A stretch of DNA of 18,604 bases from NCBI GenBank assembly GCA_958430865.1, contig CAUDNR010002258.1, positions 70,197 to 88,800 of the forward strand, written 5' to 3'. How positions within the stretch are numbered: position 1 is the stretch's first letter; the number at the start of each line of letters is the position of its first letter. This document shows, one piece after another, positions 5,019 to 16,803 of this stretch. The DNA comes from Entrophospora sp. SA101. Lineage: Eukaryota; Glomeromycota; Glomeromycetes; Entrophosporales; Entrophosporaceae. The translations under genes and the position numbers were made by a program. Under the pieces are notes generated by a model. It had not been told where the DNA came from. It searched no databases and was given only the letters and a program-made list of their open reading frames with translations.

Positions 5019-5240
5019 CTAATCGGATTTTTTCTTTTGATTTTTTTTCCAACAGTTTTTAAATTTTTCCAATTCTTCTTTACATAACCTCCAATCTTTC
5101 TTATCTGCATAGCATATTTGTAATTCTTCATTCTCCTTAAAACATCCTGTTACCAAAATTCTTTTATTATATTCATCAATATTATCATCATTATTTTGTT
5201 GAATTGATGATGATTTGTTTTTTTTTGGGGAATTTAACAT
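5019..5240 (-). CDS. COA4: Cytochrome c oxidase assembly factor COA4, twin CX9C
   Basis: A 73-residue protein with a CHCH fold: C33-x9-C43 and C53-x9-C63, giving two disulfide-linked helices. The spacer carries the DW-x2-C pattern (residues 49-53, DWRLC) and an aromatic before the last cysteine (F60). This arrangement is characteristic of COA4/CMC3-family proteins. These are imported into the mitochondrial intermembrane space by the Mia40 relay and support complex IV assembly. The N-terminal 30 residues are polar and the C-terminus is lysine-rich. The frame stays open upstream to 5345, but that extension is hydrophobic and unlike the family, so the ATG at 5240 is preferred. It is intact and intronless, and a transposon end lies 137 bp upstream of the ATG. 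Subfamily assignment is firm but made by eye; another small twin-CX9C protein is the alternative. Confidence 0.85.
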   Translation of the reverse strand: MLNSPKKNKSSSIQQNNDDNIDEYNKRILVTGCFKENEELQICYADKKDWRLCKEELEKFKNCWKKNQKKKSD

Positions 5241-5377
5241 TTTTTTTCGAAATGATAAAACTGTTGTACTACAGCCCAAAAAAGGGCCAATAATAAATAA
5301 AAGAGTAAACCTATATACAGAACTTATTGGACAAATGTAGATCAAAACTAATTAATATTAACATCATATTAATATAT

Positions 5378-5678: not shown

Positions 5679-7472
5679 ATGTCTTTAAATTTTGAATTAC
5701 CAGAAGATTTAATTCATAATGATACAATGGAATTATCTGAAACCCTTACTTTTTCAGATGAACTATATGATTTAGGATTGGATGCATATGAGCCAAATGA
5801 ATTCATGTTTAAAGCTGTTGAAGATTTGAAATTATTTTTTAATGACAAATCAAACTGTAAATGTTGAGCCAAAAATGCAATATGTTTTGAGGAAATTGGC
5901 TTTGTAAATTTCCTAGAAAGACAATTTCAACTAAAAGGATTGGATGACAATGAACTGGATCTCTGTATTAAATCACAATTAATGGTTTTTCAATTTTCTA
6001 AAAGTGAAAACAATATACAAACTCGTTATAAATATCAATATAACTCATCAATACCCATTTGTCAACGAGTTTTTTTAAAATTGTGTGGCATTGGTAAATC
6101 TAGATTATTAGCTTTACAAAAGCATTTAAACACAGATGGTCTAATTGAACGCGTTCATGGCAATACTAATAAAGTTCCTGAAAATAAGTCATGTGTAACT
6201 GTTGATTTTAAAATTGCACAATTATTTAAGGACTTTTTATTGCAATATACAAATTTACATGGATTACCATCACCAATGAAAATTAGAGATGATTTAGAAG
6301 CAATAATTTATTTGCCAACTTATATGAAATATACTACAGTATATGAGGAATTTAAGATGCATTTTAATTTGGAACATGATTCTGATAAACCTATTTCATA
6401 TACTACATTTTACAAACTGTGGAAACTATTAACACCATATATTAAATTTCAACCGTCTGGAAGTGATCTTTGTGACACTTGTGAAGGATTTAAGGCAGAT
6501 ATAAAATTCACAAATGATGATGATGAAAAAGAAAAGCTAAAATTTAAATATAAAAACCATCAAATAGATGCAGAACAAGAAAGAAGCCATTACAATGAAA
6601 TAACCAAAAAAAGTAAAAATGATTCAACAATAACACACATTTGTTATGATTGGGCTCAAAGTGTTGCAGCTCCATTTTCCCCTCAACAAGTTGGATCAAT
6701 TTTTTTCAAATCCCCTTTTGTCATACATCTTTTTGGTATATGTAAGACAGATTATGATGAAAATAATCAATTAAATTATACTATAGGAGAAGATGAGTTA
6801 CCAGAAGGAACATCAAAAAAAGGAGCTAACACTACCTTGAATATGGTTTATGATTTCCTCCAAAAGATTGATCATACTGGTAAAAAGGATCTTTATGTTA
6901 CATGTGACAATTGTTCTGGACAGAATAAAAATAATTTATCTCTTTGGTTTTGGTCATGGTTAGTGATGATGGAATGGTATGAGAATATTTATATAAATTT
7001 CATGATACCTGGACACACAAAATTCATTTGTGATGCTAAATTTGGGTCCATTAAAAAATTATACAAATCCAGTCTTATAAATACTGTTGATGATGTTGAA
7101 GAGGTTATAAACAACTCATCTGAATATAATAAATCTATTAGATATAAGAATGGATTAGGTTGGAAATGGCAAGACTTTGATTCAATGTTAAAGGATTACT
7201 TTAGAACTTTACCAAATATTAAAAAGTATCATCATTTTCGCTTCAGTAGTTCACAAAATGATATTGGAATTGTCTATTTTTCAAAAAAATCTGGTGGAGA
7301 AGAATATTCTTATAATCTCCTTAAGAATACAGAATTTGATAAAAATTCACAAAGGAATATTCTTGAAGCTGCACCTTTAACAGATGTGCGTAAAAAATAT
7401 TTATATGATAAAATTCGTCAGCATGTAGATGCTCCATATAGAGATATTCTTATTATTATTTATATCATTTAA
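5679..7472 (+). pseudogene. Sola-like DDE/D transposase, one in-frame TGA
   Basis: A single frame of 598 codons runs from the ATG at 5679 to the TAA at 7470, interrupted only by TGA at 5865-5867 (codon 63). Reading continues in the same frame after the stop with family-like sequence (FEEIGFVNFLERQFQLKGLD), so this is a nonsense mutation in one gene rather than two genes. A C-x2-C pair sits at codons 265-268. Candidate catalytic acids, counting through the stop, are D324 (CYDWAQ), D410 (TCDNCSGQNKN) and D452 (GHTKFICDAKFG). The D-N-C-x-G-Q-N-K-N and G-H-T-K-F motifs recur in transposase-derived proteins of Sola type and in DUF7869-like fungal proteins. Expected role: DNA cleavage at the TIRs in the nucleus. 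No intron is needed. Confidence 0.78.
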
Positions 7473-9109: not shown

Positions 9110-9616
9110 TAGTTGCAGGACATTGCAAATCAAATGTCATTCAATATAAACATTACATGAATAAAATTATTATCATCCACTTCGAAAAAAAAAATCTCTG
9201 TTTTTCATATAGCAAGCAATTTTCAACCATGATAAAAATTTTAAAGCCAGACTAGAACTTTCTAACAACAGTTAAAAGAAAAGGTTAGCTTAAATATTGG
9301 TTATTCTATGCTAGGTCAGAAGCGATTCTTTTCTTCACACTTATTAAGATTTTCTTCCAACTAGTATGCAGACTAAAACAAATTCAGCAGCAACAATTGA
9401 GCCAAAGTGTTCCCTACAAAGTCACTTATAACTACTTGAAAGGTTGTGTTAGAAAAATTTTGACTTTAATTATAAGAGACTGATTTATAATTATTTATAG
9501 GTTATTAATTTATTATAATATTAATTGATGAAATGAAACTATCATAGCAACACTATAATAGAAATGTTTAAAAGTTAAGTAGCCTATTACTAGCTTGTAT
9601 ATAAAAACAAATCTTG
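8417..9616. other. Relic-rich intergenic DNA, no gene
   Basis: No frame of interest. A stretch at 8803-8835 (gtccagatacttttgtccag) resembles a Tc1/mariner terminal repeat, read outward. The 20-mer shared with 2639-2658 lies at 8894-8913. An alternating TA microsatellite runs from about 9083 to 9109. The rest is AT-rich with no structure that I can name. Confidence 0.5.
8894..8913 (+). repeat. Tc1/mariner-like terminal 20-mer, copy 2
   Basis: Exact copy, same orientation, of 2639-2658 (tacagtgtgtgtcacaataa). It follows the Tc1-like stretch at 8803-8835 by about 60 bp. Sequence beyond the 20-mer does not match copy 1 by eye. Confidence 0.5.
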
Positions 9617-9875
9617 GTTTTTACAAGTATAATCTGTGCTTATTATTAATATATAAAATTGTTACACAATCACTTAGATCTTATATACATCGGAATTAAT
9701 GAGAGTGAATATTAATAATATAATAAACACCTTAGTTTTTACAAGTATAATCTATGCTTATTATTAATATTATTATTAATATATTGTTATGCGATCATCT
9801 AGATCTTATATACATTGGAATTAATGAGAGTGAATATAATAAACAAACCTTAGTTTTTACAAGTATAATCTGTGC
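9617..9875. repeat. 118-bp tandem repeat, two copies plus a partial third
   Basis: Units begin at 9617, 9735 and 9853 with the shared start gtttttacaagtataatc. Both full units share an internal block tagatcttatatacat followed by ggaattaatgagagtgaat. Small indels in the TTA/TAA-rich middle cancel out, so both periods are exactly 118 bp. The third copy is cut off after about 23 bp, at the point where Fanzor coding sequence begins. This may be a duplicated 5' flank or promoter of the Fanzor unit. Confidence 0.85.
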
Positions 9876-11748
9876 GTTCTTGTCCAACTTGTAAGGAGAC
9901 TGATTATTCACATTCTTCAAGCAACCTTTGTAAATTTCAAAAACATTGTGCATCCAAATCTGTTCAAGAAAAAAACACAAAATACAAACAATGCACAGTA
10001 AAAACTGGACTTGGAGGATTCCTTAAAGATAAAGATCTTGAGCCTGCTAACCAAACAGCACTTTATCACATGACCATTGGTGATCAATTTCCTTTCAACA
10101 CAAGTGAAGGTGCTTTCAAGTATATGAGGCAATGTTTCCAAGCTGTAACTACATCCCAAAACACCCCTGACACCACCAATGAACCCATCATAAATAATAT
10201 TCGAGATACCCTCTATACACAATATTGACCTCAAGGAATGAGTTGGACAAATAAAAATCATTAGTACAACTTCTCTCCTCTGCTGCATGACAATATGTTA
10301 TAAATTGTCAGAACCACATAACAACAAATCTCGATAACTGACTTAAAAGATGGATAAAATATAAATTATTTAAGATTCATCAATTTCCTTTACCCAAAAA
10401 ACACATCAATACCATTATAAACCATTTCATCACTAACTTGAAAAATCAAGATCTCCCTTCCCTCCCTTCAAACATTATTGATAAACTCTCTACATCACAT
10501 CCACAATACCTAATTTACTTTACTACCCACATTCAATATATTCATTTGAAAGTGCAACAGACATTATTCCAAAATCAAGCTCTTGATGATGTGTCTGTAA
10601 AAGCATCCTGGTGGTCATATCTTTCAGGTCTTCATAAAATCCTGTGCACCTTTACCAAACATAACAGGGAACATGGTCTCCATCTCTTCACACTTCTGCC
10701 TGAATACTCTTTCCAACAAAAGTACATATTAGTTGATACTGATGCTTTATATTATATGTACAAATCAATTGAAAAAGTAGGAGTAACAACCATTCAAAGA
10801 TTCAGAACTGAAAAGGAAATTTGGTGGATGGAAGCATTTAATATTAATAAAGTCACCACCCAAAATCGAATCTTTGCTTACTCCATACAAACTGATGGTC
10901 TTGCAGTATCAGTTGGTCTGCAGAAGAAAGTTGATGATTATAAAGAGGAAGTTGATGGAGAAGGATCAAATATTGATTTGAATGGATGCAAATTATTTGG
11001 ACTGGATCCTGGAAGAAAAGATCTGTTTGTAGCAGTGAGTTCAGATGAAAAAGTTGTGAGTTATTCCAACAAGGAGTACTGGAACTTAGCAGGGTTTGTT
11101 CATGCTTGTAAAAAATGTAAGTTGTGGTTGGAAAAAAATCAATATCTTCAAGCTGCTATTCAAGGTGAGCTATACTTTGTTAATTTAATTTGCTGTTAAA
11201 AAAGATATCATTGAATAATATTACTTAGATACCTTTCGCCTAATACTAATACAAAACCTAGATATTCCAACCTCTGCTGTCACTAATGTCTATGGATATG
11301 GCTCTTACCTTGCTTACACTCTGTTTTACCTTGATATAATACTTGATTTTTATGGTGAATGTCACTGGTGTCAGTTGTGATAGAAATCTTTTATTAATAA
11401 GCAGAAGGCACCTGATATTCTGTGCAAGAGAATAACAAATAATAATGGTAACAGTACAGTTGTTGCATTGGTGATAGTAAATTCTCATCAACATCACTTG
11501 GGCATGCTCCAGGCCCTGTAAAAGAATTTCACCAAGAGTTTTCTAGACACTGCAAGGTGGTGAACATTGATGAATTCCGTACTTCCTCAGTCTGTTCTTT
11601 GTGTAATGGGTGGTTTGATAAGCATCGAAAATTCTGGTTTATCAGAATCTGCAAATCAGTCTGTCTGACACATTGGAATTGTGATGTTAATGCTGCCCAT
11701 AACACAAGGAACATTTTTTTGCACACAAACACTTATGGAGAGATCTGA
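9869..11748 (+). pseudogene. Fanzor (eukaryotic TnpB-like RNA-guided nuclease), decayed
   Basis: The N-terminal block (9869-10228) begins with a Cys-rich SCPTCKETDYSHSSS motif like those at the N-terminus of many fungal Fanzors, but no ATG is in frame. After a frame change near 10230 the frame holds a helical region (NHITTNL ... LKRWIKYKL) and then RuvC-I, FGLDPGRKD, with the Asp at 11005-11007. A spliceable intron at 11165-11261 leads to IPTSAVTNVYGYGSYLAY. TGA-TAG follow at 11378-11383, and one base is missing near 11469. The frame from 11470 reads GDSKFSSTSLGHAPG, then NIDEFRTSSVC with the candidate rearranged RuvC-II Glu at 11572-11574, a zinc ribbon (C-x2-C; C-x3-C) and RuvC-III WNCDVNAA, with the Asp at 11683-11685. 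All three catalytic acids survive. The usual WNRD arginine is Cys here. Five in-frame stops in all, so not functional as it stands. Confidence 0.87.
11165..11261 (+). other. Spliceosomal intron inside the Fanzor relic
   Basis: The donor GTGAGC at 11165 and acceptor CTAG ending at 11261 enclose 97 nt. A textbook branch-site string, TACTAAT (11244-11250), lies just before the acceptor. Splicing joins CAA-G to AT-ATT and restores the frame from AAIQ into DIPTSAVTNVYGYGSY, a conserved-looking Fanzor segment. The length matches the introns of the DNMT1 gene in this window. Confidence 0.75.
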
Positions 11749-11778
11749 TCCATTTATAAGGGGGACTTACTGACCTTT

Positions 11779-11823
11779 CTGCTGCCATTTTAACTGTGGC
11801 AGGATATGTCTAGCTGGCAGCAG
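11779..11823 (+). other. Stem-loop just downstream of Fanzor, candidate omega-RNA element
   Basis: ctgctgcca at 11779-11787 pairs perfectly with tggcagcag at 11815-11823, around a 27-nt loop. It begins about 30 bp after the last Fanzor codon. In TnpB and Fanzor loci the guide RNA comes from the 3' end of the gene and the adjacent non-coding DNA, so the position fits. Structure alone does not prove this: the stem could also be a relic of the element's right end. The surrounding 11749-11880 is GC-richer than the flanking DNA. Confidence 0.4.
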
Positions 11824-12225
11824 CAATGATGACTTTCTATGAAGCCACAATTAGCTATAGGGAGGATTTGGATCTTCCTGATTTAGTGTAATAAGGTTTA
11901 ATTGTTAACCAAGAAAAAAATAATTTCATTAATCATAAGAAGCACCTTGTTTTTTCATTTCATCCTTCCCAAAAAATTGTGTTTAATAAAGTTGAGTTTA
12001 CTTGGATCCGTATCTGTTCCTGTACATTCTGTACATTCATTCAGCTTGCTGAATATGAGCATGATACGAATAATGAATACTTTCTATGTTTTATTTCCCG
12101 TGCTACCCATTTTATTTGACAAATATAAGAAAAACGTAAATCATTCTTTCACACATAACCAAATGAAACAAAAAAATTCCAAGGGAAAAGGCAGTGTTAC
12201 GAGTTTTAGTCGTTTTTTATTTGTT
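11824..12225. other. Intergenic between Fanzor relic and DNMT1 3' end
   Basis: No convincing gene. A plus-strand frame spans 11902-12249 but starts at TTG, has no recognisable domain and overlaps the last exon of the opposite-strand methyltransferase. It is treated as chance. The 3' untranslated region of the methyltransferase gene must lie here. Confidence 0.5.
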
Positions 12226-15200
12226 TTAATAAATATTGCACTGATTTAATTCTGACTTTTTAAACACTGATTCTAGTAAACATTTTCCAAGTGCAAAAGC
12301 CAACGGTGGTGGAACTGCATTGCCAATTTGGCGATGCATATCTTTAGTATCATCTCGGTCACTATAAAATATAAATTGATCAGGAAACCCTTGTGCTCTA
12401 GCACATTCCCTAACTGTAATAATTCGCCTTTGATTCGGATGTATCACAGTCTATTGTAAAATTCATAAGAAAAAAATTCCCTAATTAATAAATTTTTCTT
12501 AAAATTGTAAATTATATGTATATAATTATAATTACCCCTGTCTTCCCCATTGGATTTATATCTGTTAGGGCAGTAAGAAAATGTCCATCGAAATCCAATC
12601 TTCCAAACAACCCTTTCCAACCATTATGTCTACTTGCAGCCGAATTAGGATCACTCAGACACCAAGGTTTAAGTTTTTCTGGAAGGTCTATTATAATTAT
12701 TATTGTTAACATTGAGACCAATGACCTTTCTCTCATATTTTATTAGTGCAAAAAAAGAAAATTTAATATGATTTCAAACTTACTAGAGTGATCAGCACCT
12801 GGAAACATTGGTATGCGAACAATACGTTCCACAGTCAATGGATTAAAGGCTCTTGTTACATGATTATATAAAAATTCAGAATCTTTACGACATAGTCTCT
12901 GATATTCAGATACTGGTTCAAACACATATTTTGTCTTCATGTCACCGACCCAACCTTTTTCTGGAACTGCTATTTGTTTAAATGGACGAGCAACTTGATC
13001 ATCATCGTCTTCTTTATAAATAAATTTAGGATTTACAAATTCAAATTTTGGTAAATCAGTGATAGCATCTCCTACAGTTATTGGTGGAAGTGGTGCATGA
13101 CCATTTGTTCGTTTGTTGTAAGTGAATGATTTACCATTTGGTAATAAAATATTTATGGATCCTTGTTTTCCAAAACATGTTGATATTTGTGGGAAATCAG
13201 GTAGATAACAATCTCTTTTTGCTCCCCATATAAATAAACGACGCCTACTTTGTGGTATACCATGATTGCCAGCCTGTTGAACACCGAATCTGGTTTGATA
13301 TCTAATTATTATATAATATGTAGATATATATTATTTATTATATTTTAAATATCAGTGTAAAGTCATTCAGAGATGCATTTAAAATTTTATTTGATAATTA
13401 TATTTACCCCAATGCAGTCAATGATCTTAATATGAATTTAATTACGCCCATCTTGATTCCTCCTTTTATCTTAATACCATCTTGCTCTCCTCCTAGACGA
13501 AATGAAAGCATTCCACGAACATTCTCTAATAAAAAGTAATCAGGCCTATAAAAATCAACATAACTCAACGCTGTTGCTACAAGACTATTTTTGATATCGT
13601 CGGCTTTTTGATAACGATTCACACCACTAAATCCTTGACTAATTATTTTTTTTAAAAAAAAAACAAAAGATTTAGATTTATTTAAACCTATCAAAATAAA
13701 TAAATAAAATTTTTTCTTTACCAAGGTGGACCACAATAAATAAAATCAACTTCACCAGGTCTTGGCATACTAGGGACTTTTTGTTTCAGAAAATCATATA
13801 TTTCCTCCGGCCTTTCATTCCTGACATGTTCAGCAATTGTACGTTCAAGTAATAAATTTGCACACTGGTTATAAACAATTGCATCAGGATTATTATTTCT
13901 ATATGTATATTATTTAGAAATATAAACAAAATAAATCATTAAATTAAAAGTTAATTAATATCACTATATCAAATTAATATATTTATTATATCTTACTTAA
14001 AAGTTAAAGCTGCGCTAGGAGCAAATTCTATAGCCCATTTAGTGTTAACAATTCCTGTCATATCCATACCAATTGTTATTCCACCACAGCCTGAGAAGAT
14101 ATCCATTGCTCGTAATTTTCGCTTTTGAGAATTTATACATTCAAAGAAATTTTCCAATTTGTGTTTATGTTTTTCACGTTTGTCTTTACAAATTGAACAT
14201 GTGGAGAAACACTCAGGCTCCAATTTTAATAAATCTGAATTTTTTGGCGAGTTGATTTTTGATATTTTTTCAACATAAAAACTATCATTTTCTTCTTTAT
14301 ACTTGTCAAGATCTTCAATAGTGTCTAAATGTTGCACCCAACAAACACCCTCAAGATTGTTAATATCACTAATAAATAATTTTTTATTTGTATAATAAAG
14401 ATGACGACTATCTTTTTTTATCATAGGATATTGAACAATATCTTTATATGTAGCCTCTTCAGGTGATTTAAATTTAGGTTTCGATGAAGAACTACTCAAA
14501 TCATCAACACGGCCAAGAATATGTACCATCAATTTAATATCATTAGATAAAACTTTAGTGGTATTGTTCTTTTGACTAGATTTAGAATTTGCATTTCTTC
14601 CTGTTGAAAATATATTATCGATTGTTACTTGAACACTCGCTGTATCTTCGATAATTTCGATTATTTGACCAATAACATAAGGTAAATCCTTTTCTTCTGG
14701 TATAATGTAAATGAAATCATATTGATGATATTCATAGTCTTTATATATAAAGCCCTTATCAAAAGATTTATCAGGTGAAAGCTGTTTGGGATACACGCTG
14801 TGTTCTTTTGTAAGATGGCTTTCACATGAGTGACATTCTTCATTATCATCACAATAGATGAATTTCATATTTGGATCTTCGTGTAGTCTGACATCTTCAA
14901 AAACAGCATATTCTTTATCATACCAATACCTTTAAAAGGGTTTATCATTAAAACAAAAAATTTATTTATTGATAAATTATTATTCAATTTATTTTATTCA
15001 TTTAATTATAAAAAATTATATTATTACTCATACCTATAAAAATGGTATTGATTACTTTCGAAGATAAAGGATTCATCTTTGCAAACTTCTAGATATTCAA
15101 CAAATGCCTTACCAAGGATAGTATCAAGTTTACCATCAACACAAGTGTCCAACAAAAAGATTTCACGATCGCCAGCCAATTCATCAAGGATTGTTTCTTT

Positions 15201-16803
15201 TCCATGATTGAAGAATCTTGAATGAAACATCTTATTCTTTTTCGAATCCTCATACATGTAAATTACTTTTACAAATTGTGGTTCGTCGGATTCACCATTA
15301 CGAACATATACCACATCACCAACTTTTATAATTTCACCGTTAATACTAACTGAATTATAGTAAAGTTTTTTTTGTTTATTATTGTTATTATTATTATTAA
15401 CAATAGCCTCACAATCCCATTTAATACAATGAGTGATTGGTTTGATCATCACTATTGGAATATTATCACATTCTATTTCATCATCAGAAGTCACATCTGC
15501 TGCATCTTCTACTTGTTTAATTGTGATCAGTTTTCGTTTAAATAGACCTTTTGTAAGATTTTGTATGAATGGTGTAACGCATGTTTGATTTGTATTAGTC
15601 AAAACAGCTGTATTTGGATTTTTTATGGTAATATTTCTTTTTGTTCTAATGTTATCAGCATTAGTCATACCAACTTTTTTTGTTCTTGTATATGTACCAT
15701 TTGATAGTATCTGAAAAAGTGTATCAAGTAACGGACATTCAAGAATTCCAAATTCTGATTGTTCAGAGATCCAAGCTTGAATTTCTTCAGCAATATAATC
15801 AATATTGTTGATTATATCTTTTTCCGTTAATTTAATTTTTATTAATTCATTACCAATCTGACTAGAAGAAGAGGAAGGAGAGGGAGAGGAAGAAGCTGAT
15901 TCTTTTATAGACTTAATGAATTTCTCATAAGTGATTTCTGAATTAGAAGCCAGCGTTTCAATTGTTAAATTCGCGGCTCTAATTTTTTTATAGATAGGTT
16001 CAAAAGTTCTAAGATATTCTTCAGCTGGTTTAAGCAATTTATAAAAGGCAAATTGCGTTCGTATCCAAATTTCGCTATGATTTACAAATATAATGAAGAT
16101 AAATTTTAAATTTTGTTGTTAGATAAATAAGGTATGATTTTCTTTTTCAAAGAATAAATAAATACCTTTTACTATTTTCAAGTTGTTCGATTTGAAAATG
16201 GAATATAGTAGTGGTTCTAAATTGTTGATCAGGAAGTCTTAATTCCTCACTAAGTTCATCTTCAATAAGTTCTTCATCATCTTCATCGACATATATTGCT
16301 TTTACTATTCCCGCGGCATGCAATTCCTTCCCTAGATCATCAATTTCCTCAATACTAGCAATTCGATTTTTATTGTTTACATCAAATATTATGAAATTAT
16401 CAAGTGTACGGCATGGTATAGTATAATTCACGTTATCATAGCCGTCGGGAGGACATCCTTCATTGAATGAATCTTCACCTATAAGTTCTAATTTTTCATG
16501 TTCTTCTACCTCATTTTCCATGAAAACATAAAATCTTTTTGTGTTTACTATGTATATATATTGATATTATAATTATAATTATTGACAAATAGCGCATAAT
16601 ATATATATATAAATTTTTATAATAAATTCCAAAGAAAAAACAAAATTCTAACCAGAGCTTTTTTTTTTAGTAGTAACAGGCTGAGAAACTTTTTTACAAG
16701 CTCTATTAAAATTGAATTCTTCACTTTCATTATTATCGCTACCTGACTCACTTATTTTACGTTTAATACGACGAGGAACAGGAGTTGAACAATCTACTTC
16801 CAT
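12226..16803 (-). CDS. DNMT1: DNMT1-type maintenance DNA cytosine-5 methyltransferase (RFD, two BAH, catalytic)
   Basis: Nine exons splice to 3,810 nt, 1,269 residues. Residues 1-60 are basic and acidic with a likely nuclear signal (PRRIKRKI). Residues 95-310 look like the replication-foci domain ([18 protein letters not shown]), which in DNMT1 ties the enzyme to replicated, hemimethylated DNA. A poly-Ser run and a poly-Asn run follow. BAH1 is about 420-550 and BAH2 about 585-770. The catalytic domain has motif I DIFSGCGG (801-808), motif IV PPCQGFSG with Cys895, motif VI ENV (933-935), motif VIII QSRRR (989-993) and motif [12 protein letters not shown] (1234-1244). A target-recognition region lies between VIII and X. 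No CXXC zinc finger is seen between RFD and BAH1, unlike animal DNMT1. Its product would methylate CpG cytosines after replication in the nucleus. All motifs are intact. DIM-2 is the alternative fungal subfamily. Confidence 0.9.
12226..16803 (-). other. Exon map of the DNMT1 gene
   Basis: Exons in transcription order: 16803-16653, 16547-16166, 16074-15034, 14929-13997, 13898-13722, 13638-13408, 13301-12784, 12687-12536, 12450-12226. The introns are 105, 91, 104, 98, 83, 106, 96 and 85 nt. All are GT-AG. Donors are GTTAGA, GTATTT, GTATGA, GTAAGA, GTAAAG, GTAAAT, GTAAGT and GTAATT. Every junction was chosen so that both the frame and the family motifs continue; the total is divisible by three. 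Least certain is the first intron: the acceptor CATAG at 16548 keeps the frame, whereas a closer AAAAAG at 16535 does not. The fifth intron interrupts the catalytic Cys codon (TG^T). The second (AG^C), third (AG^G) and fourth (AA^A) are also phase 2. Confidence 0.82.

Follow-up and report, generated by a model that had tools for sequence, protein, structure and literature searches.

Known Fanzor systems

Fanzor proteins are eukaryotic RNA-guided DNA-cutting enzymes and kin of the CRISPR nucleases. A 2023 Science Advances paper on these proteins reportedly described introns and nuclear localization signals in their genes. Published Fanzor hallmarks include a DPG motif and a glutamate six residues before the zinc finger (PMC10711439), and the catalytic triad of the Fanzor1 protein SpuFz1 is given as D-E-D (PMC11423790). 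Fanzor1 genes are transposon-borne according to a 2013 survey by Bao and Jurka, which also presents examples with EST support that have 5 and 10 exons (PMC3627910). Spliced Fanzors are, on the strength of that 2013 paper, already established.

We compared these systems with a locus in a window of 18,604 nucleotides (the whole stretch of DNA that was analyzed) from a fungal genome. Positions 9869–11748 of the window are, with high confidence, a dead copy, truncated at its 5' end, of a Fanzor1 transposon present in many copies. A sequence-only reading had already taken this interval for a Fanzor relic and had its limits nearly right, except that the repeat unit extends to approximately 11907. 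The parts of the copy and its border are as follows:

9599–9875, plus strand: tandem repeat with a unit of approximately 119 bp (two units, then part of another that is only begun), outside the element (self-match of 9599–9757 to 9718–9875, 82.5%)
9874–11164, plus strand: decayed exon 2, from the N-terminal Cys motif to just past RuvC-I, with three in-frame stops, a frame change and a 57-nt deletion
9881–9952, plus strand: N-terminal Cys motif CPTC...C, which has similar counterparts in several of the full-length relatives (alignment A3)
10999–11013, plus strand: RuvC-I motif GLDPG, with the catalytic Asp at 11005–11007 (A3)
11165–11261, plus strand: 97-nt phase-1 intron, GTGAGC...TACTAAT...TAG (copy comparison; homologous 68-nt intron on contig C434)
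11262–11748, plus strand: decayed exon 3, the rest of RuvC and the zinc ribbon, with two in-frame stops and a frame change near 11467
11572–11574, plus strand: alternative RuvC-II Glu in IDEFRTSSVC (A3; as defined in PMC10711439)
11593–11664, plus strand: zinc ribbon CxxC...CxxxC, inside the PF07282 match
11683–11685, plus strand: RuvC-III Asp in NCDVNAA, which reads NRDVNAA in relatives such as P0004 (A3)
11749–11907, plus strand: conserved 3' tail past the stop codon, with an imperfect hairpin at its end and a sharp 3' terminus (copy comparison)

Domain organization and relationship to Fanzor1

The identification is borne out by a conserved domain, by full-length relatives and by profile matches to Fanzor1 structures. 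The Fanzor/TnpB profile check proposed for the C-terminal block was run on 11470–11748, and this piece matched PF07282 (TnpB/Cas12f zinc-ribbon domain; E 1.1e-6, 29.1 bits, cut-off 26.3) as the sole Pfam family found. In NCBIfam, it matched three TnpB/Cas12f models, every one below its cut-off. Exon 2 gave sub-threshold Pfam matches only, and the N-terminal piece had no Pfam match.

A read-through protein was assembled by joining pieces 9872–10252, 10255–11163, 11264–11469 and 11467–11745 with X at the stops, and a protein search scoring its residues 130–595 matched 13 of 4270 candidates, full-length Fanzor-like proteins among them. Three of these matches (P0001–P0003) are exon-2 frames 83–92% identical to the window copy, and all three enter the intron and then stop. 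Most of the others are longer than 580 aa, and two (P0010 and P0011) carry the organism name Amoeboaphelidium occidentale. P0004, a protein of 699 aa, has 39% identity to the query (E 1.1e-102) over 99% of the queried region. Compared separately with P0004, pieces of the window reached 35% identity over 243 columns and 53% over 88.

In an alignment of the read-through protein with nine relatives (A3), the catalytic Asp of RuvC-I, the alternative Glu and the RuvC-III Asp all line up. GLDPG, the IDEFRTS Glu, the zinc ribbon and DVNAA, all named in the sequence-only reading, are present and aligned with the equivalent motifs of the full-length relatives. The DPG of GLDPG (D379-P380-G381) is invariant in A3, and the Glu lies six residues before the zinc ribbon (E-FRTSSV-C), 156 positions from DPG in the read-through with X included. 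The four-Cys ribbon (CSLC...CKSVC, followed by NCDVNAA) has a CxxxC second pair, as in P0004 and P0006, and the residue before the last Asp is Cys in the window copy and Arg in the relatives. These motifs fit both the published hallmarks (PMC10711439) and the published triad (PMC11423790).

When searched against PDB sequences, the A3 profile ranked three Fanzor1 proteins as the top three of nine: SpuFz1 (1.1e-34), PpFz1 (8.8e-26) and GtFz1 (2e-22). P0004 alone matched SpuFz1 at 7.2e-9. The C-terminal piece of the window alone gave a single weak match (8hr5, 'Transposase', E 0.018) and no Fanzor, so the Fanzor1 matches depend on the full-length relatives. Along its whole length, the protein thus appears closer to Fanzor1 than to Fanzor2 or TnpB.

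Breakage, selection and CpG decay

The reading frame is broken by five in-frame stops and two frame changes (near 10252 and 11467), exactly the number counted from the sequence before. Comparison with the majority of other copies adds two lesions absent from that account: the 57-nt deletion, which lies near 10045, and, where the C-terminal part ends, the loss of 2 nt near 11737. The window copy probably makes no protein now. The expectation of intact relatives elsewhere in the genome was not borne out for the window's subfamily: the copies inspected, which are part of the matches, carry stops, frame changes, truncations or scaffold gaps. Long open frames on contigs C1713, C905 and C1429 were considered as fusions or intact genes and rejected, as the frames run through N.

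The copy at locus L002 (contig C1641) is 97.0% identical to the window's repeat (1792/1847) and repeats at least 10083–13248 of the window at 97%, flank included. It has the indels near 11467 and 11737 in common with the window copy, and not the one near 10252. Given the common indels and the matching flank, breakage of the element probably predates the divergence of the two loci.

When close copies are compared, substitutions look near-neutral; in comparisons of distant copies they look constrained. Median dN/dS fell from 0.89 at dS below 0.1 (24 pairs, range 0.29–2.5) to 0.56 at dS 0.1–0.2 (31 pairs), 0.46 at 0.2–0.4 (70 pairs) and 0.30 at 0.4–0.8 (5 pairs). These values, computed without L017 and without pairs of fewer than 60 codons (the bins hold 130 of the 136 pairs possible), are approximate; they use the window's frames with stops skipped, and the pairs share branches and are not independent. 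Such a change with rising dS is expected if the elements were constrained while moving and drifted after insertion.

The element is also strongly depleted in CpG, with an observed/expected ratio of 0.11 against 0.46 for the whole window and 0.77 for a neighboring DNMT1-like gene. A DUF7869 frame in the window is likewise poor in CpG (0.27). Some divergent copies have high ratios (L052, 0.70; L018, 0.62; L010, 0.58). The window copy has CG at 6 of its 45 CpG-type sites and TG or CA at 32. For four of the five stops, codons starting with CG or CA occur at the position in question in some of the other copies, a sign of CpG decay. Several copies have a stop at an equivalent position, which could reflect either common descent or repeated CpG loss.

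This record bears on the possibility that the locus has been domesticated, with the host keeping a part of the Fanzor (for DNA binding or repression, for example) despite the broken frames. Exon 2 does contain an open stretch of 242 codons (10438–11163) and all three catalytic residues are retained, but stops lie on both sides of that stretch and the CpG depletion is strong. Pairwise dN/dS is 0.29 between the window copy and L002, which is lower than expected for two dead copies and rests on few substitutions; the near-neutral median of the 24 closest pairs points the other way. We consider domestication highly unlikely and retain the reading of a dead transposon copy.

Conservation of the intron

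A clean GT-AG intron with a TACTAAT branch site had been noted between the two exons, and the copy comparison upholds it. The intron starts with GTGAGC at 11165, has TACTAAT at 11244–11250 and ends in TAG at 11261. It is in phase 1, splitting a codon after the first base, and links two frames; unspliced, the reading meets a stop at 11197–11199. We aligned 18 copies after excluding L006, L014, L019 and L053, which are 100% identical to kept copies over 4490, 4328, 2812 and 3357 bases, respectively. Among the 16 copies with letters at the donor, 12 have GT and 4 have AT. The acceptor region is reached in 14 copies, with AG in 12, no AG in one and the acceptor deleted in another, and the branch-like site is kept in most of the aligned copies. 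This comparison supports the intron well, and its splicing is predicted from the sequence.

A divergent copy on contig C434, whose protein is approximately one third identical to that of the window, has a 68-nt intron (GTAAAC...TTTCAG) at the equivalent codon and in the same phase. Thus, the intron looks real and old, and it probably predates the split between the two subfamilies. The C434 copy also has a second putative intron (GTAAAT..CACAG), absent from the window. As read by eye, this divergent Fanzor1 (G000:C434:9700-12200; L094) consists of several open exons with more than one apparent frame change.

The AT-richness and general breakage of the region, together with the AT donors in 4 of 16 copies, could be taken as a hint that the supposed intron is nothing but a GT-AG stretch that arose by chance in a decaying sequence. 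This is extremely unlikely given that most copies retain the donor, the branch-like site and the acceptor, that two frames are joined exactly, that the frames of three close relatives all enter the intron and then stop, and that the C434 intron shares codon and phase at such protein divergence. The sequence-only reading had further presented the intron as evidence that the nuclease family had adapted to host splicing. The intron itself stands; the novelty of the claim does not, because multi-exon Fanzor1 genes with EST support were published in 2013 (PMC3627910).

Repeat family and ends of the element

The Fanzor copies form a large dispersed family. BLAST with the region returned at least 67 pieces of 74–100% identity, the window's own included, from the best 40 of 103 candidates, and a genome search with P0004 gave at least 87 from the best 64 of 229. 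Exon 2 in tblastn found 101 pieces, the N-terminal piece as protein found 59 and PF07282 found 53. Several loci are identical pairs, perhaps haplotypes or duplicated contigs.

A TnpB/Cas12f-type sequence of a bacterium or endosymbiont, present by contamination or recent transfer, is exceedingly improbable: the guided_TnpB model of NCBIfam does match the C-terminal piece (E 2.8e-4, far below cut-off), that piece alone weakly reaches one PDB chain named 'Transposase' and PF07282 TnpB-like genes occur elsewhere in the assembly, but the whole-length alignment and profile matches to Fanzor1 structures are strong evidence against it, and so count the conserved GT-AG intron, the alternative Glu and DPG typical of Fanzor, the adjoining DNMT1-like gene and the dispersal of copies over many contigs. 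We also identified two TnpB/Fanzor2-like loci in the assembly. One (C1299:85640-86340; L095) has a high-scoring PF07282 match without a stop in a 524-aa frame and a sub-threshold OrfB_IS605 match, and the other (G000:C366:9749-9934) has a high PF07282 score and a 383-aa open frame.

Returning to the Fanzor1 transposon copies, others reach approximately 900 bp upstream of 9874 and, by reading, begin with an exon that contains a basic, NLS-like stretch. A putative upstream intron was aligned in 13 rows of at least 120 bases, representing 12 copies, since L059 and L082 belong to the same one. By eye, the rows reaching its end have AG and 10 start with GTAAAT, which L059/L082 and L072 do not. In P0002, the N-terminal part is joined without this putative intron. 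Homology between the window and the other copies begins at approximately 9874, almost exactly at the start of exon 2, where the tandem repeat directly adjoins. The truncation at 9873–9876 lies within a few bases of the exon start.

At the other end, 9 of 15 other loci (the window's duplicate excluded) have the 3' terminus in common with different flanks, and six end earlier, are cut or differ. The dispersed repeat and the common terminus with differing flanks suggest that the gene is carried by a transposable element. A search with the 3' tail gave at least 40 matches from the best 40 of 66 candidates, 30 of which reach the terminus. A 501-bp 5' query gave at least 49 from the best 40 of 153 candidates, with 3 spanning it whole and 23 of those listed accounted for by a dispersed block of approximately 100 bp. 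Among the matches listed, the pattern of ends would fit frequent 5' truncation. The block, which contains a long imperfect palindrome (GTCCCGGAATTAA..TTTAATTCCGG), lies at approximately 620–700 of L007 and in 23 other places; in some Fanzor copies it is close to the 5' part, and its other occurrences have different flanks.

The 5' end of the element was not found in the upstream pieces searched. The expected Helitron2-type 5' repeat had no match with up to two mismatches in six upstream pieces. The search for an inverted repeat that would pair with the 3' end matched the 3' ends themselves and found no partner; a further match with 4 mismatches occurs in L018, L019, L049 and L050. Nor did six copies tested show a clear target-site duplication: four had chance-like repeats of 4–5 bp, L003, where a scaffold gap adjoins, had an 8-bp repeat at a distance of 11 bases from the break, and the 5' flank of L009 is N.

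The sequence of the 3' tail is conserved among copies and its consensus structure has a hairpin-like end; 11749–11907 might possibly be a guide-RNA region. The folding of three tails was no better than that of shuffles (z −1.14, −0.96 and −0.31). In an alignment using 15 of 20 distinct pieces, with five lengthened beyond the match, both sides changed in 3 of 31 predicted pairs and the covariation term was unfavorable (+1.07). Rfam and tRNA scans of the window returned nothing.

Neighboring genes

The DNMT1-like gene lies at 12746–16037 on the minus strand, and the Fanzor relic is downstream of it. It consists of several open pieces, with putative introns between them by reading, and encodes a replication-foci domain, two BAH domains and a partial C5 methylase. 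On the plus strand, a 510-aa open frame (5940–7472) with DUF7869 (PF25273) has many relatives in arbuscular mycorrhizal fungi. Among the best 120 of 170 relatives, those with an organism name are from Rhizophagus, Gigaspora, Ambispora and Cetraspora, apart from two with archaeal MAG labels. The best match (92%) carries such a label, and we take these MAG-labeled proteins to be from contaminated bins. The relatives of this mobile gene point to an arbuscular mycorrhizal fungus as the probable host. The minus strand also has a broken hAT-like transposase (360–2187) with a DUF659 match below the cut-off and, by reading, a zinc-finger-like start and a hAT-like C-terminus; L016 holds a 67% similar piece of this region. 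A small CHCH-like protein (5019–5345, minus strand; match below the cut-off) had no relatives among 50 candidates at E 1e-3 or better.

Proposed history

The intact ancestor would have encoded a nuclear, spliced, RNA-guided DNA endonuclease. Its guide scaffold may have come from the 3' end of the element, and the nuclease could have aided the maintenance or spread of the element. The window copy would then have been inserted, truncated and left to decay, largely by loss of CpG to TpG or CpA as expected for methylated repeats. A wider reading, which we offer as a long shot, is that the old phase-1 intron was kept across deeply split Fanzor1 subfamilies of one fungal genome while dead, 5'-truncated copies with intact 3' ends accumulated. 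Selection would then act on the 3' tail as the part that moves, with dead copies serving as a source of guide RNAs and being copied in trans. Splicing would set the balance between the nuclease mRNA and the guide RNA that one transcript yields. In the end, CpG methylation would have silenced the family and worn it down.

Comparison with known systems

No title among those listed in the open literature searched concerned a spliced or decaying Fanzor family in the arbuscular mycorrhizal group (Rhizophagus and Mucoromycota included), and the available passages of one review are silent on it. The word 'intron' is absent from the main text of the Nature 2023 Fanzor paper. A Fanzor family in arbuscular mycorrhizal fungi may be undescribed in the literature searched, though the range over which Fanzors are known would lead one to expect it.

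The window protein resembles the solved Fanzor1 proteins SpuFz1 (8gkh), PpFz1 (9cf0) and GtFz1 (9cer) in its RuvC Asp, alternative Glu and Asp, its TNB zinc ribbon and its full-length profile similarity. Unlike them, the window copy is broken and truncated and has CxxxC as its second zinc pair. It has DPG where SpuFz1 has DPN, and its third catalytic residue is Asp, whereas that of GtFz1 is Asn (PMC11423790). Furthermore, it has at least one intron, in contrast to the single ORF given for SPu-1-1p (PMC3627910). The same survey describes Chlamydomonas CRe-1, -2 and -3, which like the window family are multi-exon Fanzor1 elements present in numerous copies, many of them lacking the 5' part but complete at the 3' end, and which were assigned to Helitron2 by their common ends (hairpins and asymmetric inverted repeats). 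In the window family a hairpin-like 3' end was seen, and the upstream pieces searched yielded no such repeats.

Closer to home, the TnpB-like or Fanzor2-like gene at G000:C1299:85640-86340 has, by reading, DPG, Glu and Asp motifs like the window copy but belongs to another lineage and shows no stop in the 233 aa read. P0004, P0005 and P0006 have the motifs of the window protein, and its domains in the same sequence, across 99% of the queried region, and differ in having a continuous reading frame and no intron at the window's intron position. To these systems, the locus adds a large, intron-bearing and decaying Fanzor1 family, probably from an arbuscular mycorrhizal fungus, together with its family context and, at the level of single copies, evidence on selection, on the loss of CpG and on how old the intron is.
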